A stretch of 64,000 nt of DNA from Thermobrachium celere DSM 8682. GTDB taxonomy: Bacteria > Bacillota > Clostridia > Clostridiales > Caloramatoraceae. The DNA is taken from positions 980,929-1,044,928 of the forward strand of contig NZ_HF952018.1 of the NCBI RefSeq assembly GCF_000430995.1, given 5' to 3'. The translations under genes and the position numbers were made by a program. Positions 30,073 through 43,458 of this stretch are shown here, piece by piece. The stretch's first letter is position 1. Each line of letters opens with the position of its first letter. The notes under the pieces are model-generated. The model saw only the letters and a program-made list of their open reading frames with translations, had not been told where the DNA came from and did no database searches.

Positions 30073-30516
30073 TTATTTATTCTCTTCTTTTGGCTGATCA
30101 TTTTGTGCTACTGGTTTTGGTTGAACTGGTGGAACAGGTGGTTTTGGAGGAGCCTTCTTTATGAAAGTACCTCTAACCATTAAATCCTCTTCATTCTCTG
30201 CAATCATTAAATATTCCTTTGTTAATTCGATAGCCTTTCTTGGACAAAAGTCTTGACATAATTGACAAAATGTACATTGTCCTAAATAAAATTGAAATGT
30301 TACTTTATCACCATCTTCAACCTTTTCAATTGTTCTTGTAATTGCACCAGGTGCACAAACTCTTATACACATTCCACAATTCACGCATTTATCTGGATGA
30401 AATACAATTTTCCCTCTATATCCTTCTGGTGCTTCTTTTACTTCCTTAGGGAAATTTTCAGTTGAAGGCTTTGAAAATAATGATTTAACAGCTTCTTTTA
30501 AATATGGAAATTTCAT
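30073..30516 (-). CDS. mbhN: hydrogenase 2x[4Fe-4S] subunit MbhN (NuoI-like)
   Basis: The 147-residue protein holds two 4Fe-4S motifs, CVNCGMCIRVCAPGA (about 43-57) and CTFCQLCQDFCPRKA (about 78-92). These match the ferredoxin-like subunit of group 4 hydrogenases and complex I NuoI. It should accept electrons from reduced ferredoxin and pass them to MbhJ. The C-terminal 25 residues form a proline-rich tail (KAPPKPPVPPVQPKP) not usual in the family. Its ATG overlaps the mbhJ stop. It is the last gene of the operon. Confidence 0.9.
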   Translation of the reverse strand: MKFPYLKEAVKSLFSKPSTENFPKEVKEAPEGYRGKIVFHPDKCVNCGMCIRVCAPGAITRTIEKVEDGDKVTFQFYLGQCTFCQLCQDFCPRKAIELTKEYLMIAENEEDLMVRGTFIKKAPPKPPVPPVQPKPVAQNDQPKEENK

Positions 30517-30956
30517 TTCATTGCCCTCCTTTTTTCCTTAAGTATCTCAACAGCTCTCACTAATCCTGCCATTATAGCTTCTGGTTTTGGAGGACAACCC
30601 GCAATTGATACATCTATTGGTGCATATTTATCTAATGGACCTTCAACACAATAGCTTCCATTAAATACATTACATGATCTTGGGCATGATCCTAGTGATA
30701 CAACAACTTTAGGTTCTGGTACCTGTGCTAAAGTTCTTATAAGCCTGTCTCTAGATTGTGACGTTATTGGCCCTGAAACCACTATTATATCTGCATGTCT
30801 CGGAGAACCTGCAATCTTAAAACCAAATCTCTCTGCATCATATCTTGGAGTAATAACTGACACAAGCTCTATGTCACATCCATTACAAGAACCTGTATTT
30901 AAATGATATAACCATGCTGATTTTTCTAATCCTTTTTGAATTAGCTTTTCAAACAT
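30513..30956 (-). CDS. mbhJ: hydrogenase small subunit MbhJ (NuoB-like)
   Basis: The 147-residue protein is the small subunit of an energy-converting NiFe hydrogenase. The ligands of the proximal [4Fe-4S] cluster are seen in HLNTGSCNGCDIELVS, GSCPRSCNVF and AGCPPKPEAIM. It lacks the medial and distal clusters of uptake hydrogenases and is close in length to EchC/MbhJ. It links MbhN to the NiFe site in MbhL. Its ATG follows AGGAGGTGTTTGA, 16 bases after mbhM. Confidence 0.93.
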   Translation of the reverse strand: MFEKLIQKGLEKSAWLYHLNTGSCNGCDIELVSVITPRYDAERFGFKIAGSPRHADIIVVSGPITSQSRDRLIRTLAQVPEPKVVVSLGSCPRSCNVFNGSYCVEGPLDKYAPIDVSIAGCPPKPEAIMAGLVRAVEILKEKRRAMK

Positions 30957-30972
30957 TCAAACACCTCCTAAA

Positions 30973-31935
30973 TTACAACCCAAAGTAAACAAGAATTAAG
31001 CTTAATAATGCTAGGGCTGTAGGGTAAGTCCAATAAAATCTTAATGTTTGTTCTACTCTTAATCTTGCTGTAATAGCTTTTAATATAGTAATTGAGAAGA
31101 ATACAACAACAATACTTAATATAAATTGTAAAATAGCATCTACTGCCAATATACCTGTTCCTGAACCACTTAAAAATAGTGTCACGAAAAGTGAAGTCAT
31201 TACTAGCATTTTTATAGCATGGTTAAGCTTAAAGATAGCAAGTGGTGCACCACTATATTCAACAAGAGGACCTTCACAAATCTCTATTTCAGCTTCAGCT
31301 ATATCAAAAGGTAAGCTTCCTACTTTACATGGTATAACAAGAAGCATTGCAATAAAAGCTGGAATCATGCTTAACTTTGTAAATAGTGGTCCATTTTGCG
31401 CTTGATATTCTACAATTTGTGATAGTGAGAAAGTCATTATCCCATTATTTAATTCTAATCCTACTTTTTTCGCAATAGCCAACAATGATATTACCATTGG
31501 AAGCTCATATGATATTATAGCAACCATTTCTCTTGATATACCAACACCTGCATAAGGTGAACCTGAAGCTGATCCTCCAACAATCAATGCAACAGCAGGA
31601 ATTGTTAGAAGATATATAACAACAATTAAATCTGCATATGTGCTAAATGGACTAAATTTAAATACAGGTATAAATAATGAAACTGTTATTAAACTTATTA
31701 GCCCAATAACTGGAGCTGCTAGGAATGCTCTCTTAGCAGCATTTCTTGGTACTATTGTTTCTTTACCTAAAAGTTTAAAGAAATCATAAAATGGCTGCCA
31801 AATTGGTGGACCTACTCTTTTTTGCATTCTTGCTAATAATTTTCTATCTATACCTGCTAACACTAAACCTCCAACAAAACAATAAAGTAGGCCTGGATAA
31901 AATAATATATATAATATTCTTTTTAGTAATTCCAC
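30973..31935 (-). CDS. mbhM: membrane anchor subunit MbhM (NuoH/EchB-like)
   Basis: The 320-residue protein has about eight membrane helices and the NuoH signatures RMQKRVGPPIWQPFYDFFKLLGKE and ISREMVAIISYELPMV, plus PFDIAEAEIEICEGPLVEYSG. These acidic loops contact the hydrophilic arm in complex I and MBH. The start is GTG 31935, seven bases after AAGGAGGG and 13 bases beyond the mbhH stop; an upstream in-frame ATG would overlap mbhH. It couples the redox module to the antiporter module. Confidence 0.93.
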   Translation of the reverse strand: MELLKRILYILFYPGLLYCFVGGLVLAGIDRKLLARMQKRVGPPIWQPFYDFFKLLGKETIVPRNAAKRAFLAAPVIGLISLITVSLFIPVFKFSPFSTYADLIVVIYLLTIPAVALIVGGSASGSPYAGVGISREMVAIISYELPMVISLLAIAKKVGLELNNGIMTFSLSQIVEYQAQNGPLFTKLSMIPAFIAMLLVIPCKVGSLPFDIAEAEIEICEGPLVEYSGAPLAIFKLNHAIKMLVMTSLFVTLFLSGSGTGILAVDAILQFILSIVVVFFSITILKAITARLRVEQTLRFYWTYPTALALLSLILVYFGL

Positions 31936-31948
31936 ACCTAGTCCCTCC

Positions 31949-33844
31949 TTATCTAACAAATGTGAAAACATATAATAATACAACAGCAGCTGTTAATACA
32001 ACTGAGAGGGCGTAATCATTTACTACTCCATTGTGAATCTTATGCATTAAATCAAAGTAATGTCTAAATTGATATTTTAAGCCCCAGAACAAGTCACTTC
32101 CACCAACATGTGAAAACTCAGCTGATTCACCACTATAGAATACATCATATTTAGCATCTTCTTCATCTGAATAGCTAAAGTGTTTTGGATTAAATCCACC
32201 TAGCAATGCTACTAATGTAAATGCTAATAACAATATTCCAAATAGTATTAACCATGCGATTGGTTGCCAATATCCAGCTAATTTATAATCAATTACTGGT
32301 GCATTTCCTAAATTGTTATAGAATTTTGACGCAAATTCTGGTCCCATCATTACTTCAACATACTTTGCTGAATTCATAACTGCATTTGCAGCTGGAGTTA
32401 TCAAGTATTTTGTAAAGCTTGATGGGAATATTCCACCAACTATACATAAAATAGCCATTATCCACATTGGTACCCTCATTGAAAGAGGTACTTCTTCAAC
32501 ATTTTTAAACTCTTTTGGTAATTGTCCAAAGAAAGCTGATTGAGCAACTTTTATAAAAGAAGCTAATGTCATAACACTTACTATTAAAGCAATTATTGTA
32601 ACAGGAGCATATCCTGCTTCATATGATGCTTGATAAATTATCCATTTTGATACAAAACCATTAAATGGAGGTATACCACTAATTGAAAAAGCACCAATTA
32701 TAAATATTAAAGCAGTTTGTGGCATTCTTTTAGCTAATCCACCAAGTTTATCTAAATCTGTTGTTCCTGTTGCATAGTAAACTGCTCCAGCACATAGGAA
32801 CAATAATCCTTTGAATAAAGTATGGTTCAAGGCATGATATAATCCACCAGTAATACCTAAAGCTGTTGCTAAACCAATACCTGTAATTACATAACCAATT
32901 TGTGAAATACTGTGGAATGCCAATAGCCTTTTAAAGTCGTGTTGTGCTAATGCCATTGTTACACCAATAAACATAGTAACAGTTCCCCAGAATATTAGCA
33001 TAAATTGTACAGATGGAAGATTCATACTTTGATAAACTACATATAGTACTCTTAAGATACCATATACAGCTGCCTTATTAACAATACCTGAAAATAACAT
33101 TGATATTGATGAAGGTGCTGTCATATATGCATCTGGAGCTACAAAGTGTGTAGGTACAGCAAACACCTTAACTGCATAACCTACTACCATTAATGCTAAT
33201 GCAAACAATGTTGTAATTGTATAATTATTATGCAGTTCTCCTGCTATTTGTGCAAGATTCAATGTATGGAATTGTGCATAAATTATAACAGTAGCAAGTA
33301 GTATTAGTGATGAACCAATAGATCCTATAGCAATATATTTAAAACCAGCTTCAACAGCTTCTGGCTTATTGTTTCTAAAAGCCGTTAATGCTACCGAAGC
33401 AAATGTCATAATTTCTATCATAACATACATATTAAATAGGTCGCCAGTAAATATAAAGCCCATTACACTCGCTGACATCATTAAAAATAAAACATAGTAC
33501 TTATCTTTTCCAGTCTCTTTTTCTATATATTTAAAAGAATATAATGCTGACAATACAATAGATAATGAAATAAATAAACCAAAGAATAAGCTTAATTGAT
33601 CAACTTCTAATCCAATACCTATAGCCCAATTTTGTACAGGTTCCCAATTACCCATCCAGTAAGTAATTATATTTCCTTCACCAATTATTGGTTTGTACAT
33701 CATTAAAGTAAATATAAAAGACATAAATGTTGCAATTAATACAACCGTATTTCTTAATACCTCATTTTTCTCTTTAATTAGTGCAACAATAAAGGCACCA
33801 ATAAAAAGTGTAATAATAGCTAATATAGGTAAATGTTGTGTCAT
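31949..33844 (-). CDS. mbhH: antiporter-like subunit MbhH (MrpD/NuoL-like) with a probable MbhI extension
   Basis: The 631-residue protein is an ion-translocating antiporter-like subunit with about fourteen core helices. Family marks include the glutamate motif YVMIEIMTFASVAL and the lysine-bearing segments AYMTAPSSISMLFSGIVNKAA and HDFKRLLAFHSISQIGYV. Archaeal MbhH is about 510 residues. The additional C-terminal stretch of about 120 residues has another membrane helix, then FYSGESAEFSHVGGSDLFWG and a last helix near the terminus. No separate mbhI gene is present, so I infer that MbhI is fused here. The stop lies 13 bases before the mbhM start. Confidence 0.88.
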   Translation of the reverse strand: MTQHLPILAIITLFIGAFIVALIKEKNEVLRNTVVLIATFMSFIFTLMMYKPIIGEGNIITYWMGNWEPVQNWAIGIGLEVDQLSLFFGLFISLSIVLSALYSFKYIEKETGKDKYYVLFLMMSASVMGFIFTGDLFNMYVMIEIMTFASVALTAFRNNKPEAVEAGFKYIAIGSIGSSLILLATVIIYAQFHTLNLAQIAGELHNNYTITTLFALALMVVGYAVKVFAVPTHFVAPDAYMTAPSSISMLFSGIVNKAAVYGILRVLYVVYQSMNLPSVQFMLIFWGTVTMFIGVTMALAQHDFKRLLAFHSISQIGYVITGIGLATALGITGGLYHALNHTLFKGLLFLCAGAVYYATGTTDLDKLGGLAKRMPQTALIFIIGAFSISGIPPFNGFVSKWIIYQASYEAGYAPVTIIALIVSVMTLASFIKVAQSAFFGQLPKEFKNVEEVPLSMRVPMWIMAILCIVGGIFPSSFTKYLITPAANAVMNSAKYVEVMMGPEFASKFYNNLGNAPVIDYKLAGYWQPIAWLILFGILLLAFTLVALLGGFNPKHFSYSDEEDAKYDVFYSGESAEFSHVGGSDLFWGLKYQFRHYFDLMHKIHNGVVNDYALSVVLTAAVVLLYVFTFVR

Positions 33845-34191
33845 CCTTTTAACCTCCTTACCTTATCGGTATCAAGAGTACCATAATGTTTATTTATCAT
33901 AATAACTAGTGCTAAAGCTAATGCAGTTACACAAGCACCAATTACGATTGATGTAAGAGTTAATGCCTGTGGTACTGGATCAACAAAAAAGGATGTTCTA
34001 TCAAGCTCTGAAATTGTAAATATAGGTGCGGTACCCCCTGCTTTAAATCCTACACTTATAAGTAATAGATTTATGCCGTAATCTAGTAATCCCATACCAA
34101 TAACTATCTTCATAGCATTCTTTTTAGTAACAATAGTATATAAACCTAAAACTATAAGAATTATACATGTAATATAATTCATTAATAACAT
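33841..34191 (-). CDS. mbhG: hydrogenase subunit MbhG (MrpC/NuoK-like)
   Basis: The 116-residue protein has three membrane helices and the MrpC/NuoK segments IVIGMGLLDYGINLLLISVG and DPVPQALTLTSIVIGACVTA. It forms part of the ion path between MbhF and MbhH. ATG follows AGGGGTGATTAA. It overlaps the mbhH start by ATGA. Confidence 0.92.
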   Translation of the reverse strand: MLLMNYITCIILIVLGLYTIVTKKNAMKIVIGMGLLDYGINLLLISVGFKAGGTAPIFTISELDRTSFFVDPVPQALTLTSIVIGACVTALALALVIMINKHYGTLDTDKVRRLKG

Positions 34192-34205
34192 TTAATCACC
34201 CCTAT

Positions 34206-34658
34206 CTATGCTTCTTTATTTGCAAGAAGTCCAAACATTAGTAGAATTAAAAATCCTACTCCTGTTAAAACCTTATATCCTACTGCAAAATTCATTAAGA
34301 AAATTGTACCTGAGCTAAATAAATCACCAGGATTTCCTACATTATAAAATACATTTCTACAGAAGTTTGCAGCATAAAATATACCAAGTAATGCAAAGAA
34401 TGAATACATTAAAGCACCTATAGCTTCACTCTTTTTAAGTAAATTTGGTTTTAAAGTATTTGTTGCAGTTTCATAACCATATCCTAAATAAATTAGTACT
34501 GCTGCTGAAGCAACTATAACACCACCTTGGAATCCTCCACCAGGGCTAAGATGTCCATGTAAAATTATATAAATACCTAATATTAATCCTATTGGTGCAA
34601 AAAAGTCTGCAGCAGATTTAATGATATATTCTTTAACCTTAACATTCTTATTGCTCAT
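34206..34658 (-). CDS. mbhF: hydrogenase subunit MbhF (MrpB-like)
   Basis: The 150-residue protein has four membrane helices and the MnhB signature GHLSPGGGFQGGVIVAS. MrpB-like subunits are essential structural parts of the Mrp antiporter and of MBH. The N-terminus NVKVKEYIIKSAADFFAPIGL fits the family. It follows mbhE with one base between. Confidence 0.93.
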   Translation of the reverse strand: MSNKNVKVKEYIIKSAADFFAPIGLILGIYIILHGHLSPGGGFQGGVIVASAAVLIYLGYGYETATNTLKPNLLKKSEAIGALMYSFFALLGIFYAANFCRNVFYNVGNPGDLFSSGTIFLMNFAVGYKVLTGVGFLILLMFGLLANKEA

Positions 34659-34659
34659 A

Positions 34660-35001
34660 TTAATCTGCCCTTCCTTTCATAGCATTTCTTAATATAACAA
34701 CTGTACCTGAAATGGCAGTAAATAGTACAAATGATTCACCTAATGTATCGTATCCTCTAAAGTCAAAAACTATTGCTGTAACAGCATTAATTGCATGAGT
34801 TTTATCAATAGTTTGTTTTACCATTAAATTGGCTACTCCATCCGCATCATTATTTTCATATTTACTTGGATTGTTATATAACTCAACAACATTTACTTTT
34901 TCACCATTGAAGGTAGGAGACAATTTTGACATTTCAATTGCTGTGTAACAACCAATTATTAAAAATACTGTAAGTGCAAAGTAAGTGAAAAACTTCTTCA
35001 T
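34660..35001 (-). CDS. mbhE: hydrogenase subunit MbhE (MrpA C-terminal-like)
   Basis: The 113-residue protein has two membrane helices flanking an extracytoplasmic loop of about 60 residues, and carries the conserved NAVTAIVFDFRGYDTLGESFVLF. That motif also closes MrpA of Mrp antiporters, so MbhD and MbhE together equal the MrpA C-terminus. Its ATG overlaps the mbhD stop. Confidence 0.88.
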   Translation of the reverse strand: MKKFFTYFALTVFLIIGCYTAIEMSKLSPTFNGEKVNVVELYNNPSKYENNDADGVANLMVKQTIDKTHAINAVTAIVFDFRGYDTLGESFVLFTAISGTVVILRNAMKGRAD

Positions 35002-35246
35002 TTTCTAACCCCCTTTACTTTTCTAAGGGCTACAATAAATATAACAGGTTGTAGTACAACTCCTACTGCAGCCTCTGCAATTGCAACATCTGGTGCATGT
35101 AACATTATAAACTCTAAAGTAACAAAGGCCCCTACAGCACCTAATGCTATAATTGATGAAAGAAGGTCATCAAAATATACTGTTAAAACTGCTGATACTA
35201 AGATACCTATCAATATTAATGTATTTAATAAAACAATATTATTCAT
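34998..35246 (-). CDS. mbhD: hydrogenase subunit MbhD (DUF4040, MrpA-type)
   Basis: The 82-residue protein has three hydrophobic segments and the DUF4040 pattern DDLLSSIIALGAVGAFVTLEF and HAPDVAIAEAAVGVVLQP. The start is ATG 35246 after GGGAGGGATTTTCCTA; the longer frame upstream lies in mbhC. It overlaps mbhC by 8 bases. Confidence 0.9.
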   Translation of the reverse strand: MNNIVLLNTLILIGILVSAVLTVYFDDLLSSIIALGAVGAFVTLEFIMLHAPDVAIAEAAVGVVLQPVIFIVALRKVKGVRK

Positions 35247-35574
35247 TAGGAAAATCCCTCCCATAATCATCACATGTCAAATTATCAGCCTTTACGCCAG
35301 ACTTATAAGCTGCTTTACAAATAGCATGTCCAGCCACTGGATTTGTAATAATTATAAAAATTGCTATGAATAAAATTTTTATTGCCATTGATGTATTTTT
35401 TAATGTTAAAGCAAATAAAAATCCACCAAGAAGAGCACCTAGGGTACCTAGTGTTGCAATATTTGTACTTGACTGCATTCTACAATATGAGTCAGGCATT
35501 CTTAAAACACCAACAGTACCTGCAAAGGCAAAAAAACAACCTATTATCATGAATATATAAGCTACATATATCAT
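35239..35574 (-). CDS. mbhC: hydrogenase subunit MbhC (MrpG-like)
   Basis: The 111-residue protein has three membrane helices and the MnhG landmarks GVLRMPDSYCRMQSSTNIATLGTL and NPVAGHAICKAAYKSG. MrpG-like subunits complete the antiporter membrane arm. The ATG overlaps the mbhB stop (ATGA). Confidence 0.93.
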   Translation of the reverse strand: MIYVAYIFMIIGCFFAFAGTVGVLRMPDSYCRMQSSTNIATLGTLGALLGGFLFALTLKNTSMAIKILFIAIFIIITNPVAGHAICKAAYKSGVKADNLTCDDYGRDFPNE

Positions 35575-35831
35575 AGTTTTCCCTCCAGATACTTTGAAAT
35601 TAGTAGTGTTCCTATGAAACCTAGAATTGCTAAAGTTAATGCAATATCAAGATATATACCTCTTTTGCTGTATACAGAAAATAATACTAATGCTACTACT
35701 GTTAGTAAATCAATACTATCTGCAGCAACAACCCTATCAACAACATTTGGACCTTTTAAAACTCTATATAATAGGATTATTGATAATATAATATAAAATA
35801 TTGATACAAATATTAAACTATTCACTTCCAT
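35571..35831 (-). CDS. mbhB: hydrogenase subunit MbhB (MrpF-like)
   Basis: The 86-residue protein has three membrane helices and the MrpF motif VLKGPNVVDRVVAADSIDLLT. Its ATG, after AAGGAGGAT, lies inside the end of mbhA (10-base overlap), so translation is coupled. Confidence 0.93.
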   Translation of the reverse strand: MEVNSLIFVSIFYIILSIILLYRVLKGPNVVDRVVAADSIDLLTVVALVLFSVYSKRGIYLDIALTLAILGFIGTLLISKYLEGKL

Positions 35832-36340
35832 ATCCTCCTTATCCAGTTTTCTAAAGTACCTTTTATTGCTTCTCCAGCTTTTTCTCTGTTTGTTTCAGCA
35901 ACATCTATCCAATGTATATAGTAATAGTTTTTACCATTTTCTTCTACTATCTCCATTGTTATTGTCCCTGGAGTTAACGTAATTGAATTAGCAAGCATAG
36001 CCATTCCATATTCTGACTCTAAATTAACAGGTACTTTTACAATTCCTGGATTAACAGGTAAATTTGGATTTAGAGCTCTTTTTGCAACATCAACATTTGC
36101 CTTCCATAGCTCTTTTAAAAATACAAATACATAAAGAATTAAATTTATAAACTTTGCAGGATTAAATAGATGAAAAGCATTTTCATGGATGAAGAATCTT
36201 GAAACTAAAGTTGCAACTAATAAGCTTACAACTGCTCCTGCTAAAAGCTCTTGTGTTGTAAATGTCCATGTAAATAATATCCACAAGAGATAACAGAAGA
36301 TGAATGTTGAAATAATTGAGCTAAATTTTGTTGGTTTCAA
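35822..36340 (-). CDS. mbhA: hydrogenase subunit MbhA (MrpE-like)
   Basis: The 172-residue protein has two or three N-terminal membrane helices and a cytoplasmic domain with the MnhE features NPGIVKVPVNLESEYGMAM, ANSITLTPGTITME and YYIHWIDV. Start is TTG at 36340, six bases after GGGGGG. It opens the antiporter block, immediately after hypB. Confidence 0.93.
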   Translation of the reverse strand: MKPTKFSSIISTFIFCYLLWILFTWTFTTQELLAGAVVSLLVATLVSRFFIHENAFHLFNPAKFINLILYVFVFLKELWKANVDVAKRALNPNLPVNPGIVKVPVNLESEYGMAMLANSITLTPGTITMEIVEENGKNYYYIHWIDVAETNREKAGEAIKGTLENWIRRIWK

Positions 36341-36352
36341 TTAAAGCCCCCC

Positions 36353-37012
36353 TTACTTTTTTATTTTTTTATCAATTGCATTTTTCAATGCATTGACTAG
36401 CTCATTAAGTCCTTCTTTTGTTTTGTTGGATACTCTGAAAATGTTAATGTTTGGATTTAACTCTCTTGCAACAGATTCAACCTTTTTATCATCGAAGTCA
36501 AAATAAGACTTCATATCATATTTATTTAATACTAATATTTCTGAAGTTGAAAACATTAGAGGATACTTTTCTACTTTATCATCACCCTCTGGTATGCTTA
36601 AAATTGCAACTCTTATATCTTCTCCAATGTTAAATTCTGCTGGGCATACCAAGTTACCTATATTTTCTACAATAATCACATCAATTTCGTCTAAATTAAA
36701 ATACTGAAGTATGTGTTTTATTGACATAGCCTCAATATGGCATGCTCCATCAGTATTTAATTGAACTACTGGTATATCCATCTTTTTTATCTTTTCTGCA
36801 TCTATTTGACCAGCAATATCTCCTTCAATTACTGCTATTTTATAGTACTTTCTAAGCTCATTTATTAAGTTTACAATAAGGCTCGTTTTTCCTGCTCCAG
36901 GTGATCCCATCACATTTATCATATAAATATTCTTTTTTTCAAATGTATCCTTTATCTCATTGCTGCAATCCTCATTCCATTCAAGTATTTGTTTTACTAC
37001 TTTTATTTCCAC
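36353..37012 (-). CDS. hypB: nickel-insertion GTPase HypB
   Basis: The 219-residue SIMIBI GTPase has the P-loop MGSPGAGKTSLIVN, EGDIAGQIDAEKI and the metal-site region TDGACHIEA, with NKYD as the guanine motif. It delivers nickel to the hydrogenase large subunit with HypA. There is no N-terminal histidine-rich nickel store. The start is taken as GTG 37012, nine bases after GGAGG; a TTG at 37021 directly abuts the ribosome site. It overlaps the hypA end region and precedes mbhA. Confidence 0.94.
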   Translation of the reverse strand: MEIKVVKQILEWNEDCSNEIKDTFEKKNIYMINVMGSPGAGKTSLIVNLINELRKYYKIAVIEGDIAGQIDAEKIKKMDIPVVQLNTDGACHIEAMSIKHILQYFNLDEIDVIIVENIGNLVCPAEFNIGEDIRVAILSIPEGDDKVEKYPLMFSTSEILVLNKYDMKSYFDFDDKKVESVARELNPNINIFRVSNKTKEGLNELVNALKNAIDKKIKK

Positions 37013-37013
37013 A

Positions 37014-37355
37014 TCAATCAACCTCCAAACTATCCACGTAAAATTCCTTGCCAGCTGTTATTCTTACATTTAAACTACCACAATTTTTACATCTTAATCT
37101 ATGTCTCTCAATAATACTTTCATTTCCACATTCATTACACTTCATTCTTGCTTCAACTCTACGTATGATAAGCTCTGCCCCTTCTGCAATTGTACCTCTA
37201 CTTGCTATATTAAAGTACTCTTGAATTAGTTGGGGAAATACACCTGATAGTTCCCCAACTACTAACTTTATAGAATTTACCTTGTTAAAATGATGTTTTT
37301 TTGCTTCACTTTCAACTATTTTTATAATTCCTTCAGTAATTGATAACTCATGCAT
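37014..37355 (-). CDS. hypA: nickel metallochaperone HypA
   Basis: The 113-residue protein starts with the nickel-binding MHELSI and carries the structural zinc site CNECG...CKNCG (about 73-92). It works with HypB to load nickel into the NiFe centre. The gene lies 7 bases after mbhL, inside the structural operon rather than with the other hyp genes. Confidence 0.97.
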   Translation of the reverse strand: MHELSITEGIIKIVESEAKKHHFNKVNSIKLVVGELSGVFPQLIQEYFNIASRGTIAEGAELIIRRVEARMKCNECGNESIIERHRLRCKNCGSLNVRITAGKEFYVDSLEVD

Positions 37356-37362
37356 TTTATCA

Positions 37363-38445
37363 CTACCTATCTAAACATGAGAAGCAAGGATCTATTGATG
37401 CAATTATTAAACCTGCATCTGCTACTGTATTATTTTTTAACATATAAGGTACAGTTGGAGCAGTTTTAAAGGTTGGAACATGTATACTTATTCTATAATT
37501 TGTTTGTCCTCCATCAGTTACTACATAATAAATTACTTGACCTCTTGGTGCTTCGTGTCTTGCTGTAAATTCTCCAGCTGGAACCTTAGGAAGTTTATTA
37601 CCTAAATTTATTGGACCTTCTGGAAGGTTTTCTAACGCCTGTCTAATTATCTTTACACTTTCTTCTATTTCTAAAACTCTAACTACAACTCTTGCCCAAA
37701 CGTCACCATCTTCTAATACAGGTATGTCAAAATCAAATTCATCATAACATGAATAAGGAGCATCCTTTCTAACATCAACTCTTATTCCTGACGCTCTAGC
37801 GTGTGGTCCAATTGTTCCCATTCTTTCTGCTACATCCTTTGGTAATACCCCAACGCCTTTAGTTCTTAAAGCAGCTGTTTTATCATTTAAGAATATTTCC
37901 TTCATTCGATTGTGTGGTTCATTTAAATCATCTAGCATCTTTAAAACCTTTCTTCTCATTTCATCGTTAATATCTCTTCTTGAACCACCAATTATAACCA
38001 TACCGTAGTTTACTCTATTACCTGAAATTTCTTCTAGTATATCCATAACTTTTTCTCTAGCATCCCATACATACATAAATAGTGAATCATATCCTATTAA
38101 GTGGCAAGCTAATCCTATCCATAGATAATGTGAATGTAATCTTTCAAGTTCAGCCATAATAACTCTTATATATTGACCTCTTTTTGGCACTTCCATTTGT
38201 GCTATGTTTTCAATTGCCATAGCATATGTAAATGGATGTGAATGTGAACATATTCCACATACTCTTTCAACTAAAGTTAATGTCTGAATGAAATTTCTTT
38301 CAGTTGCTAATTTTTCTATTCCTCTATGGTTATATCCTATAAATACTTCTGCGTCCTTTATTACTTCACCTTCAGTATATAACTTAGCATGAATTGGTTC
38401 TTCCAAAGATGGATGATATGGACCTATAGGTATTGTATAACCCAT
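37363..38445 (-). CDS. mbhL: NiFe hydrogenase catalytic large subunit MbhL (NuoD-like)
   Basis: The 360-residue protein has the four nickel-iron ligands in RVCGICSHSH (about 62-71) and DPCFSCLDR at the extreme C-terminus, so it should be catalytically competent, unlike complex I NuoD. It belongs to group 4, the ferredoxin-linked membrane-bound H2-evolving enzymes. The protein stops directly after DPCFSCLDR, leaving no tail for the usual maturation endopeptidase. Its ATG, after AAGGAGGGAGAATA, overlaps the mbhK stop (TAATG). The neighbours hypA and hypB follow within a few bases. Confidence 0.95.
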   Translation of the reverse strand: MGYTIPIGPYHPSLEEPIHAKLYTEGEVIKDAEVFIGYNHRGIEKLATERNFIQTLTLVERVCGICSHSHPFTYAMAIENIAQMEVPKRGQYIRVIMAELERLHSHYLWIGLACHLIGYDSLFMYVWDAREKVMDILEEISGNRVNYGMVIIGGSRRDINDEMRRKVLKMLDDLNEPHNRMKEIFLNDKTAALRTKGVGVLPKDVAERMGTIGPHARASGIRVDVRKDAPYSCYDEFDFDIPVLEDGDVWARVVVRVLEIEESVKIIRQALENLPEGPINLGNKLPKVPAGEFTARHEAPRGQVIYYVVTDGGQTNYRISIHVPTFKTAPTVPYMLKNNTVADAGLIIASIDPCFSCLDR

Positions 38446-38834
38446 TATTCTCCCTCCTTAAGTGTCTTCTTCCTTAATTCTTCTAATGGTGTTACTATAA
38501 TATGTCCTTGTCCTTCAAGCATTGTGTCTGGCAGGAATAGTCTTCCCCTCATTTTTAAACCTTCAAATTTTACTCCCATAAGCTCATATAATTCTTCTTC
38601 AGGCCATGCTGCTGCAACATCATATATTTCAGAAATTGATGGTAAAGTGTCTTCTCCTACAACTTTGTAGGATTCAATACAATTGCCTACTTCATATTGG
38701 TAGTTAACTACATGTTTTCCTTCTTTGTCAACATAGCCATGAATCATTACAAGCCTATGTCCCTTTTCTCTCATTCTTTGAGCTAATGGAACTATTTCTT
38801 CTTTTTTAATTTCAATTGATTTAAATTCCTGCAT
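38445..38834 (-). CDS. mbhK: hydrogenase subunit MbhK (NuoC-like)
   Basis: The 129-residue protein matches the 30-kDa/NuoC family: VNYQYEVGNCIESYKVVGED, a PSISEIYDVAAAWPEEELYELMGV segment and GRLFLPDT. In MBH it caps the large subunit MbhL. The start ATG 38834 follows AGGAGGTGCATTT; upstream in-frame starts lie in hypE. It is coupled to mbhL and follows hypE. Confidence 0.9.
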   Translation of the reverse strand: MQEFKSIEIKKEEIVPLAQRMREKGHRLVMIHGYVDKEGKHVVNYQYEVGNCIESYKVVGEDTLPSISEIYDVAAAWPEEELYELMGVKFEGLKMRGRLFLPDTMLEGQGHIIVTPLEELRKKTLKEGE

Positions 38835-38854
38835 AAATGCACCTCCTATGTACT

Positions 38855-39859
38855 TTAACATATTCTCGGCAATTGAGCACCTGTTAATTTTGTAAGTACT
38901 CTACTACCACCAAGATTTGTATTTAACACAACCTTTGAAGGAAAGTTTTTTGTAACTTTCCCTATTATGGCTGCATCCTTGCCTAATTCAATATTTCTTA
39001 AATCATTAATTAAACTTTCTGCAATACTATAATCAACAACAGCTAATATTTTTCCCTCATTTGCTGAGTATAAAGGATCAATTCCTAATATTTCACACAA
39101 ATTGTTTGTTTTAACGCTAACTGGAATGTCCTCCTCATTTATTTCAATTGAATACTCTGTTCCTTCAACAAACTCATTTAATGTTGTTGCCACTCCACCT
39201 CTTGTAGGATCACGCATAATCTTTACTTTATTACCATATTGTAATATACATTGTGCTAATTCATATATTGGTGCACAATCAGATATCACTGAAAACTCAT
39301 CAACTAGATTGTTTCTTGCAGCCATAATTGAAGCTCCATGATCGCCTACTGTTCCAGTAACTATAACCACATCATTTTCTGCTATTTTATCTTTCCCCAA
39401 AAATTCATGTGTTAAAACTCCTATACCAGAAGTATTTATATAAATACCATCACCTTTGCCTTTTTCAACTACCTTTGTATCCCCAGTAACAACTTTTACA
39501 TTGCATTTTTCTGCTGTTTCTTTTATAGAATTTATTATCTTCTTTAGATCCTCCAGCTTAAATCCTTCTTCAATAATTAAACTTAAACTCAAAAACTTAG
39601 GTACAGCACCACAAACGGCTAAATCATTTACTGTACCACAGACAGCTAATTTTCCAATATCCCCTCCTGGAAAAAAGTAAGGGCTAACCACAAAACTGTC
39701 TGTAGAAAATACAAATTTATTTGAATCTAATTCTAATATTGCGCCATCTGACAAAGCATTAAGCTCATTACAAGCAAATGCTGGAAGAATTAGATTTTCA
39801 ATTAATTGTGAAGTTTTTTTACCTCCACTGCCATAAGATAGCGTAATTATTTCGTCCAT
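38855..39859 (-). CDS. hypE: hydrogenase maturation protein HypE
   Basis: The 334-residue PurM-like ATPase ends in the hallmark PRIC, whose terminal cysteine carries the carbamoyl group from HypF and is dehydrated to thiocyanate as the cyanide source. N-terminal LSYGSGGKKT and the central DPTRGGVATTLNEF fit. ATG follows AGGTGATTAA, ten bases after hypD. Confidence 0.97.
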   Translation of the reverse strand: MDEIITLSYGSGGKKTSQLIENLILPAFACNELNALSDGAILELDSNKFVFSTDSFVVSPYFFPGGDIGKLAVCGTVNDLAVCGAVPKFLSLSLIIEEGFKLEDLKKIINSIKETAEKCNVKVVTGDTKVVEKGKGDGIYINTSGIGVLTHEFLGKDKIAENDVVIVTGTVGDHGASIMAARNNLVDEFSVISDCAPIYELAQCILQYGNKVKIMRDPTRGGVATTLNEFVEGTEYSIEINEEDIPVSVKTNNLCEILGIDPLYSANEGKILAVVDYSIAESLINDLRNIELGKDAAIIGKVTKNFPSKVVLNTNLGGSRVLTKLTGAQLPRIC

Positions 39860-39868
39860 TTAATCACC

Positions 39869-40957
39869 TCAAAATTGTAAATATTTATAATACGCTGCAC
39901 AAGCTCCTTCACTTGAAACCATACAAGGCCCAACTGCATTTTCTGGAGTACACAATCTACCAAAGAGCGAACACTCATTAGGCTCAATTTTTCCTTTTAT
40001 TACATCACCACACCTACATGCTGTTGTCTTATTATTCTCTCTTAAAGTTATGTTAAACCTTGTAATTGCATCAAATTTTTCATACTCTTTTTTTAACTTA
40101 AGACCACTATTTTTAATTAAACCAATTCCTCTCCATAAATCATCTGAAACTTTAAAATACTTTTCTACTTTTTCTTTTATAATTTTATTACCCTCTGTCT
40201 TTACAACTCTTTTATACTCATTCTCTAGTTTAACATCATTATTTATAATTTGATTAATTATCTTAAATATCCCAATTAAGATATCTCCAGCTTCAAATCC
40301 ACAAATAACTGAAGGTTTTTTATATTCATCAACTAAAAATCTAAATCCCTCTTCTCCTATGACTGCACCTACGTGACCTGGGCAAATAAACCCATCTATA
40401 TCAAAATCAGGTTGTTCTAGTAGTGCCCTTAACGCAGGTTCAACTAATTTATGCATTGAATAGATATAAAAATTATTTATGTTATTATTAATGGCTTCTT
40501 CTAAAGCTAATATAGTTCCCGGAGTTGTAGTTTCAAATCCTATACCTAAAAAAACAACTTCTCTATCTTGATTATTCTTTGCTATTTCTACTGCATCTAA
40601 TGCTGAATAAACAATTCTAATATCGCTTCCCAATGCCCTTAATTTTTCTAGACTTTCTCCTACATTTGTACCAGGCACCTTCATCATGTCACCATAAGTA
40701 GTTATTATTAAATCTCTATTTTTTCTACAAAGCTCTAAAATTGCATCTATTTCTTCAGAAGGTGTCACACAAACAGGACATCCAGGACCTGATATTAATT
40801 TTATATTTTCAGGTAGCAAACCCTTAATCCCAGATTTTGCAATCGCCATTGTGTGTGTCCCGCACACTTCCATAATTTTTATTTTTCTATCTATCTTTTT
40901 CAGAAACTTTATAACCCTATCAATATCTTGAGGTTTTCTAAATTCATTTAAGTGCAT
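39869..40957 (-). CDS. hypD: hydrogenase maturation protein HypD
   Basis: The 362-residue iron-sulphur protein assembles the Fe(CN)2CO unit with HypC. It shows MEVCGTHTMAIAKSG, ISGPGCPVCVTP and GFETTTPGT. The C-terminal cluster ligands are ACRCGDVIKG, CSLFGRLCTPENAVGPCMVSS and the final EGACAAYYKY. Its ATG follows AAGGAGG and overlaps the hypC 3' end by 14 bases. Confidence 0.97.
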   Translation of the reverse strand: MHLNEFRKPQDIDRVIKFLKKIDRKIKIMEVCGTHTMAIAKSGIKGLLPENIKLISGPGCPVCVTPSEEIDAILELCRKNRDLIITTYGDMMKVPGTNVGESLEKLRALGSDIRIVYSALDAVEIAKNNQDREVVFLGIGFETTTPGTILALEEAINNNINNFYIYSMHKLVEPALRALLEQPDFDIDGFICPGHVGAVIGEEGFRFLVDEYKKPSVICGFEAGDILIGIFKIINQIINNDVKLENEYKRVVKTEGNKIIKEKVEKYFKVSDDLWRGIGLIKNSGLKLKKEYEKFDAITRFNITLRENNKTTACRCGDVIKGKIEPNECSLFGRLCTPENAVGPCMVSSEGACAAYYKYLQF

Positions 40958-41165
40958 CAGTAACCTCCTTAATAAGACGTAGATTTTCTATAGCATCTTC
41001 TTCCTTTAATTTTTCTATTGCAAATCCAGCATGTACTATAACATAGTCTCCAACTTTTACGTCTTTAACAAAATCTATTCTAATTGTTCTTTTAACTCCC
41101 TCTATTTCAGCTTGAGCTGTATTTCCCTCTATATTAACCACCTTCAATGGTACTGCTAAACACAT
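40944..41165 (-). CDS. hypC: hydrogenase maturation chaperone HypC
   Basis: The 73-residue protein starts MCLAVPLKV, whose second-position cysteine is the functional residue that holds the iron ligand complex and the immature large subunit. The later GDYVIVHAGFAIEKL is typical. The ribosome site and start lie inside the end of hypF, overlapping by 10 bases. Confidence 0.97.
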   Translation of the reverse strand: MCLAVPLKVVNIEGNTAQAEIEGVKRTIRIDFVKDVKVGDYVIVHAGFAIEKLKEEDAIENLRLIKEVTDALK

Positions 41166-43414
41166 CTCATACCACCTCCATTTGCAACAACAGCAAGCTG
41201 ACCTAATGATATACCTTCATCATTTGTTGAAACTCTTTTATGAATGTATACATTAAATCCATCACTTTGCAATCTTGTATATATTCTATCGAGCAAATAC
41301 ATATTTTGAAAAACGCCACCTGATATTACAATATCTCTACAATTAGTCTCTGACTCTATTTGTTTAACAGATTTAACAGCAAAATCAACCAATGTATTCA
41401 TAAATTTAGCTGATATTATATTTATTGATACACCTCTACCAATATCTAAAACAATTTCTCTTATCATTGGTCTCCAATCAAACTCTAGTAAATCACTTTG
41501 CTCTAAATTGTAAGTATACACTCCATTTTCATTCAACTCTGCAGTTTTCTCTAAAAGTATTGCACCTTGTCCCTCATAGCTTGCATAATGCCTTAATCCT
41601 AATAATGATGAAACTCCATCAAAAAGTCTACCAATACTTGAGGTAAGGTATGTATTCACATTGTTTTCAATCATTTTATTTATTATTTGGCTATTTTTCA
41701 TATCTAAAATATTTTTATCTACATTGCCAAAGGTTTGATACAAAAGATCATAAGCAATTCTATCAATTTCCTTTATCGCTAAATCCCCACCTACTAATCT
41801 AATCTTTCTTATTGTTGCTCTTCTTTCAAATTCTCTATAATTTCCATATAGTATTTCTCCACCCCAAAGTGTATTATCTAATCCAAGTCCTGTACCATCC
41901 CAAGTTATTGCAATAACATTTCCATTTAAATTATTATCAGCCATACATGAAGCCATGTGAGCATGATGATGTTGAACCATATAGACTTCTTTATTATGTT
42001 TTTCACCTATGTCTATAGCATATTCTGTTGACATATAATCTGGATGATAATCACACACAATCTTTTTAGGATTAATATCAAAAAGCTTCTTAAAATGCTC
42101 TATTTGACTAATATAATTATTGTATGTTTCTATATTTTTTAAATCTCCTATATGTTGACTTAAAAATGCATAATTCTTTTTCAGTAAACAAAATGACGCT
42201 TTTTGTTCTGCTCCACATGCTAAAATATCTTCAGCTTCAAATTCAACTTTTATAGGGAATGGGGTATACCCCCTAGAACGCCTTATAAAATATTCATTTC
42301 CCTTATATACAAAAATTAATGAATCATCACACCTAACATATATATCTCTATTATGCAAAAGGAAACCATCTGCTACTTCTTTAAGTTCTATTGTTGCTTC
42401 ATCATTATCTTTGATTATAGGTTTATCCTTCATATTTGCACTTGTCATTACTAAAACATCTAATTCATCATCAAAAAGAAGAAAATGTAAAGGTGCATAA
42501 GGTAACATAATACCTAAATAGTTATTATCTATTGATATATAATCAAATATTTCACTTTTCTTTCTTAATAATACTATAGGTCTTCTAAAACTTGTTAGGT
42601 GTTCCTCTTCTTCTTTAGAAACTATACAAAACTGTCTAACTGTTTTTATGTCTCTACACATAAGTGCAAAAGGTTTTTCTTCTCTATTTTTTCTCTGTCT
42701 TAACTTTTCAACAGCAATTTTATTTTTTGCATTACATGCTAGATGAAAGCCACCTATACCCTTTATAGCAATTATTTTTCCTTCCTTTAAATCATTCTTA
42801 ACACTTTCTATTACATTTTCCTTTATAATAATGTTATCAGAATTTAAATAATATATATTTGGTCCACAATCAAAACAACAATTGGGTTGTGCATGATATC
42901 GCCTATCCTCTATATCTTTGTATTCACTCAAACAACTATCACACATTTTAAATTTGTTCATTGTTGTTTTTTCTCTATCGTATGGTACATCCTTTATTAT
43001 TGTAAATCTCGGACCACAATTTGTACAATTTATAAATGGAAATTTATATCTTTTGTCATTTTTATCATTTAACTCTCTTAAGCAATCATCACATATAGCT
43101 ACATCAGGAGAAATTAGCGTAAACTTTGTAGTATCATTGGTACTTTCAATTATTCTAAATTCATTATAACCTAGCAATTCATCATACACAGTTAAATTTA
43201 TACTTTCAATTACAGAAAGCTTTGGTTTTTTTATCTTAATATCTTCAACAAAACAATGTATCTTGTCTAACTCTCCCTCAACTTCTATTACTACTCCACT
43301 TGATGTGTTTTTAACCCAGCCCTTCAATTCATATTCCGATATTAGTTTATGAATAAAAGGCCTGAAACCTACTCCTTGCACTATTCCGTTTACTACTATA
43401 TTTGCTCTTTTCAA
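41156..43414 (-). CDS. hypF: carbamoyltransferase HypF
   Basis: The 752-residue protein has the four HypF parts. An acylphosphatase domain (NGIVQGVGFRPF) comes first. Two zinc-finger pairs follow (CDDCLRELND, CTNCGPRF, CDSCLSEY, CFDCGPN). Next is a YrdC-like domain, and last a Kae1-like carbamoyl-transfer domain with HHHAHMASCMADN and the DGTGLGLDNTLWGGE metal site. It moves carbamoyl from carbamoyl phosphate to HypE. The start is best placed at TTG 43414, six bases after AGGTG; ATG 43420 abuts the ribosome site and remains possible. It is the first gene of the hyp-mbh operon. Confidence 0.95.
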   Translation of the reverse strand: MKRANIVVNGIVQGVGFRPFIHKLISEYELKGWVKNTSSGVVIEVEGELDKIHCFVEDIKIKKPKLSVIESINLTVYDELLGYNEFRIIESTNDTTKFTLISPDVAICDDCLRELNDKNDKRYKFPFINCTNCGPRFTIIKDVPYDREKTTMNKFKMCDSCLSEYKDIEDRRYHAQPNCCFDCGPNIYYLNSDNIIIKENVIESVKNDLKEGKIIAIKGIGGFHLACNAKNKIAVEKLRQRKNREEKPFALMCRDIKTVRQFCIVSKEEEEHLTSFRRPIVLLRKKSEIFDYISIDNNYLGIMLPYAPLHFLLFDDELDVLVMTSANMKDKPIIKDNDEATIELKEVADGFLLHNRDIYVRCDDSLIFVYKGNEYFIRRSRGYTPFPIKVEFEAEDILACGAEQKASFCLLKKNYAFLSQHIGDLKNIETYNNYISQIEHFKKLFDINPKKIVCDYHPDYMSTEYAIDIGEKHNKEVYMVQHHHAHMASCMADNNLNGNVIAITWDGTGLGLDNTLWGGEILYGNYREFERRATIRKIRLVGGDLAIKEIDRIAYDLLYQTFGNVDKNILDMKNSQIINKMIENNVNTYLTSSIGRLFDGVSSLLGLRHYASYEGQGAILLEKTAELNENGVYTYNLEQSDLLEFDWRPMIREIVLDIGRGVSINIISAKFMNTLVDFAVKSVKQIESETNCRDIVISGGVFQNMYLLDRIYTRLQSDGFNVYIHKRVSTNDEGISLGQLAVVANGGGMRCV

Positions 43415-43458
43415 CTTCATCACCTATTTAATTAAATATTTAACAAACTGCAAACTAT

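Follow-up and report, generated by a model that had tools for sequence, protein, structure and literature searches.

A hydrogenase large subunit of Caloramator celer, encoded in the 64,000-nt window that we analyzed (contig C32, positions 980929 to 1044928), is encoded without the C-terminal tail that a HycI-type peptidase would remove. Going by its sequence and that of its relatives, it is very probably the catalytic subunit of a ferredoxin-linked, Mrp-module group 4 [NiFe]-hydrogenase, translated at its mature length with no HycI step. The gene, for an MbhL-like protein of 360 amino acids (37363..38445, minus strand), closes with ...IIASIDPCFSCLDR and then TAG; the last residues of the protein are ...ADAGLIIASIDPCFSCLDR, with TAG next. 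An earlier note on this DNA had claimed that the stop codon directly follows the second nickel-binding motif, DPCFSCLDR (37363..37392, minus strand), and this proved exact; as detailed below, the position of the stop right behind the motif is conserved. Together with the N-terminal motif RVCGIC (38248..38265, minus strand), both CxxC motifs are complete, with all four cysteines present (C63, C66, C354, and C357). The nickel ligands conform to the group 4 patterns RxCGxC and DPCxxC, and kinship to the Complex I 49 kDa/NuoD family and an operon with membrane subunits likewise speak for group 4. Pfam matches are to Complex1_49kDa (PF00346, E = 4e-76) and NiFeSe_Hases (3e-14), and the best solved relative is Pyrococcus furiosus MbhL (6cfw_L, E = 4e-89), whose PDB chain ends in DPCLSCTDR. 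We nevertheless use MbhL as a loose name, since the protein belongs to a clade distinct from that of the Pyrococcus subunit. Its terminal arginine aligns with the final residue of mature Escherichia coli HycE, which is cleaved after Arg-537 (PMC7654741). Trimming by one or two residues through an unrelated peptidase would be invisible at the DNA level.

The gene neighborhood, all on the minus strand, is that of a complete membrane-bound hydrogenase with its own assembly factors. Upstream of mbhL lie hypF (41156..43423), hypC (40944..41165; 73 aa, starting MCLAVP; TIGR00074 and PF01455), hypD (39869..40957; PF01924, E = 2.4e-146), hypE (38855..39859), and the gene of an MbhK-like subunit of the Complex I 30 kDa/NuoC type (38445..38861; PF00329). 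Downstream, hypA (37014..37355; TIGR00100) starts a few bases past the mbhL stop and is followed by hypB, encoding the nickel GTPase (36353..37021; TIGR00073). The series continues with membrane subunits resembling Mrp antiporters of the MrpE, F, G, B, and C types (33841..36340), an MrpD/MbhH-type membrane subunit (31949..33844), the NuoH-like membrane subunit MbhM (30973..31983; PF00146, E = 5e-71), the hydrogenase small subunit MbhJ (30513..30956; PF01058, E = 5e-27), and MbhN, a ferredoxin subunit with two [4Fe-4S] clusters (30073..30516; Fer4_7, E = 1e-12). Of these, hypF, hypE, and the Mrp-like reading frames including MrpD/MbhH were named by sequence recognition; hypF is conserved in relatives, hypE is conserved there upstream of mbhL, the order of the MrpE-to-C-type genes is conserved as well, and relatives also carry the MrpD/MbhH-type frame. 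Thus, all six hypABCDEF genes are present in the cluster, as the earlier note had it, and its observation that the operon lacks an endopeptidase gene extends to the whole window: we found no HycI-family gene there, the sole match in the genome lying elsewhere. The cluster itself (TCEL_00187-00205) has already been published as a putative MBH-like, ferredoxin-dependent hydrogenase (PMC3986597); in the published C. celer papers on it we found no mention of the missing tail.

The tail-less end is shared by window-type loci of relatives. Among named relatives from Caloramator, Fervidicella, Clostridium, many Lachnospiraceae and Oscillospiraceae, and one member of the Coprothermobacteraceae, all 66 loci with a complete C-terminus end in the same way, with the consensus DPC-x-SC-x-D plus one residue; this last residue alone varies, being R or, rarely, K, D, C, or V. 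Within the order, 29/29 loci had this end too; some loci belong to both sets, which together give about 95 relatives. When a tail was sought after the stop in other genera, the sequences there differed and none contained one. In the C. celer assembly itself, a 3.7-kb contig (C50; L008:3423-3686) carries an 86-residue piece of mbhL, 98% identical, next to a long stretch of N and sequence of other origin, which probably is an assembly artefact.

By family search, the C. celer genome encodes one HycI-type peptidase (C32:1429573-1429971), about 410 kb from the mbhL of the window. This 131-aa protein keeps the residues that are invariant in the family alignment (D14, D15, D56, and H83), and its gene overlaps the 3′ end of that for a second large subunit of 432 aa, which ends in DPCVSCATH-LVSKNGEFLNENYFMHR, i.e., with a 17-residue tail. 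Small subunit, tailed large subunit, and overlapping HycI make up a second [NiFe]-hydrogenase (L007:7362-9969, about 1427361-1429968 of C32), which is missing from the metabolic paper, where a single [NiFe] cluster is listed (PMC3986597). Elsewhere in the order, large subunits of this second type extend 5 to 24 residues past the motif, usually with HycI adjoining. Pfam HycI (PF01750) alone proved too insensitive for such searches, giving the C. celer peptidase a score of just 25 bits and missing those of G004, G012, and G014; we therefore built a profile from 20 sequences (A1), with which E. coli HycI and HybD as well as further HycI-family structures in the PDB are found. Matches to DUF1256/YyaC were dropped as peptidase candidates, being sporulation-type proteins of another family.

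Searching with profile A1 the 30 genomes of the order that carry the window-type subunit, we found HycI to track the tailed enzyme. That is, HycI was found in 17 of the 18 genomes that encode a tailed large subunit as well, compared with 2 of the 12 lacking one (Fisher p = 2e-5, uncorrected for shared descent, the counts not being independent because the compared genomes are related). The coupling is imperfect, given one genome with a tail but no detected HycI (G022) and one with HycI alone (G087); in G044, which likewise lacks an intact tailed subunit, HycI lies beside a decayed one, and the peptidases of G044 and G087 look like orphans. The large subunit of G022 (L219:1509-2924) has a 14-residue tail and HypD is broken by stop codons in the assembly, possibly reflecting a non-functional system or assembly errors. 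HycI was not found with profile A1 in nine genomes, two of them incomplete assemblies (G013 and G059) and the other seven (G003, G026, G037, G041, G057, G058, and G223) near-complete; G077 contains only a HycI remnant. HypD is kept in all seven near-complete genomes and was present in every HycI-less genome tested for it. In G003, the second large subunit (L218:5680-6948) ends in DPYVSCATH, having lost the tail and one nickel cysteine along with HycI, and looks like a decaying enzyme. From this distribution across relatives, the window hydrogenase would seem to have no need of HycI.

Could the tail merely be hidden? Errors that might mask one do occur, as illustrated by a frameshift inside mbhL in the neighboring Caloramator assembly G015, and programmed readthrough would have the same effect. 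However, about 95 relatives stop at the identical place, and in C. celer AGG is followed in frame by TAG TGA TAA, all ahead of the hypA start codon at 37355, so that a tail would not come to light through leaky readthrough or the correction of one sequencing error. This triple stop is kept in several Caloramator species, and in many relatives hypA starts within a few bases of the mbhL stop. A frameshift or sequencing error, which the earlier note had set against its own reading, was tested and is excluded by the conserved loci together with the extra stops; an encoded but masked tail of any kind thus has a vanishingly small probability.

It is also very unlikely that the single HycI of the genome acts on the window subunit, for example by trimming near its C-terminus. 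The peptidase has kept its invariant residues, and one such enzyme is able to serve two group 4A hydrogenases (PMC7654741), but the subunit has no residues past the usual cleavage site, the gene of the peptidase is placed with its tailed partner, and the same subunit occurs in genomes devoid of HycI. Hence, of the question that the earlier note had raised about a HycI-type peptidase, the existence of one in the genome was borne out, while its action on this subunit was not, the gene overlapping the tailed one. Alternatively, the subunit might be non-catalytic or sensory and not need full maturation: H2 sensors commonly lack a tail (PMC7294309), and NuoD-like proteins without nickel ligands share this end position. 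Here, too, the chances appear slim, given the presence of all four nickel-ligand cysteines, an operon comprising a complete membrane complex plus six hyp genes, and a flux model of C. celer that depends on the TCEL_00187-00205 complex to oxidize ferredoxin (PMC3986597). We infer that the window enzyme is active.

Across the phylum, C-termini of group 4 large subunits separate into tailed and tail-less types. Mbh-type subunits of other families, 43 to 53% identical to that of the window, have tails of 28 to 47 residues, and hycI accompanies them in the cluster in all 16 of these genomes, where it is located downstream of mbhN, in one case on the other strand; HycE-like enzymes extend 33 residues past the motif. 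Like the window type, CO-type and Ech-type subunits are tail-less, ending in CISCTER and forming clades of their own. HycI was not found in any of the 14 genomes with Ech-type subunits (for ten of which the absence of a tail was deduced from frame length rather than read), nor in G293, the sole genome outside the order with a window-type subunit. Several CO-type genomes do hold HycI, mostly adjoining other, tailed hydrogenases. In the tree, the subunits of the window type, except for one from the Coprothermobacteraceae, are united with support (96/94) in a clade distinct from the tailed Mbh enzymes, among which P. furiosus MbhL is placed. A topology that unites the window type with tailed Mbh is rejected, if weakly (AU p = 0.031). 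Tail presence requires at least two changes on the tree, whose deep branches are open and compatible with either loss or gain.

Maturation without proteolysis, as the earlier note had proposed for this subunit, is thus well supported, if by inference only, through a conserved absence of the tail and seven near-complete host genomes without HycI. Judging from the gene set, HypABCDEF would build and insert the NiFe(CN)2CO center. The step in which a HycI-type peptidase cuts off a C-terminal assembly peptide once nickel is in place would then be omitted, as there is no peptide to remove, and the mature C-terminus would be fixed by the stop codon. Closure over the filled site, or a check of its filling, would therefore have to come about by another route; for instance, the small subunit might refuse an empty large subunit, as has been proposed in the form of small-subunit proofreading for the regulatory hydrogenase of Ralstonia, which has no tail either (PMC7294309). 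Going further, we lean toward the idea that a clostridial Mrp-linked energy-converting lineage, distinct from the MBH of Thermococcales, functions and undergoes quality control with no maturation peptidase at all, and that its comparison with tailed, hycI-carrying relatives of the same phylum would show the purpose of the tail.

The absence of a tail is not new in kind, since tail-less [NiFe] large subunits have been described for groups 2b, 2d, 4c, 4e, and 4g (PMC7294309; also PMC12134894, without 4g), in agreement with the earlier note, which had placed them among sensory and some energy-converting enzymes. What is added here is a clear and well-populated example, along with the contrast at the operon level. 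That group 4 hydrogenases depend on a hycI-like gene was the conclusion of a study on group 4A enzymes (PMC7654741); the clostridial lineage qualifies this statement, several of its members having no HycI anywhere in the genome. The lineage is widespread, occurring in Caloramator, Clostridium, and many rumen Lachnospiraceae, and offers a convenient natural comparison of tailed versus tail-less membrane hydrogenases. As a practical hint, tail-less enzymes could be made in another host without a matching peptidase.

Among known systems, the MBH of P. furiosus and Thermococcus (group 4d) is a complex of the same type, with Mrp-like, NuoH-like, small, and ferredoxin subunits. However, Thermococcus MbhL is a cleaved precursor (PMC4549637) whereas the window subunit has no extension; the clade of P. 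furiosus MbhL excludes the window subunit, setting it apart from the group 4d Thermococcales; and hypAB directly follow mbhL in the window, different from the archaeal operons. A third C. celer complex with Mrp-like subunits (L006:5309-13000, about 1652308-1660000 of C32) has a NuoD-like subunit in which one cysteine per motif is retained; its best match is the MBS subunit of Pyrococcus (6u8y_L, E = 8e-106), and the complex is probably of the MBS/Mbx type, here in a bacterium. Groups 4c (CO), 4e (Ech), and 4g (uncharacterised) reportedly combine Hyp machinery with the lack of a C-terminal extension, although the CISCTER end of the CO and Ech types differs from the DPCFSCLDR of the window type. 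The latter may correspond to HydDB group 4g, as suggested by the literature on Clostridium 4g in the rumen (PMC6776011). E. coli HycE (hydrogenase-3, group 4a) is also a group 4 large subunit whose mature form ends at the same residue, yet it has a 32-residue extension and a dedicated HycI (PMC7654741), neither of which belongs to the window subunit. Finally, HoxC of the regulatory hydrogenase of Ralstonia eutropha (group 2b) is matured by Hyp proteins without proteolysis (PMC7294309), much as we propose for the window subunit, but HoxC is an H2 sensor of another group, while the window enzyme is of the membrane-bound, energy-converting type.
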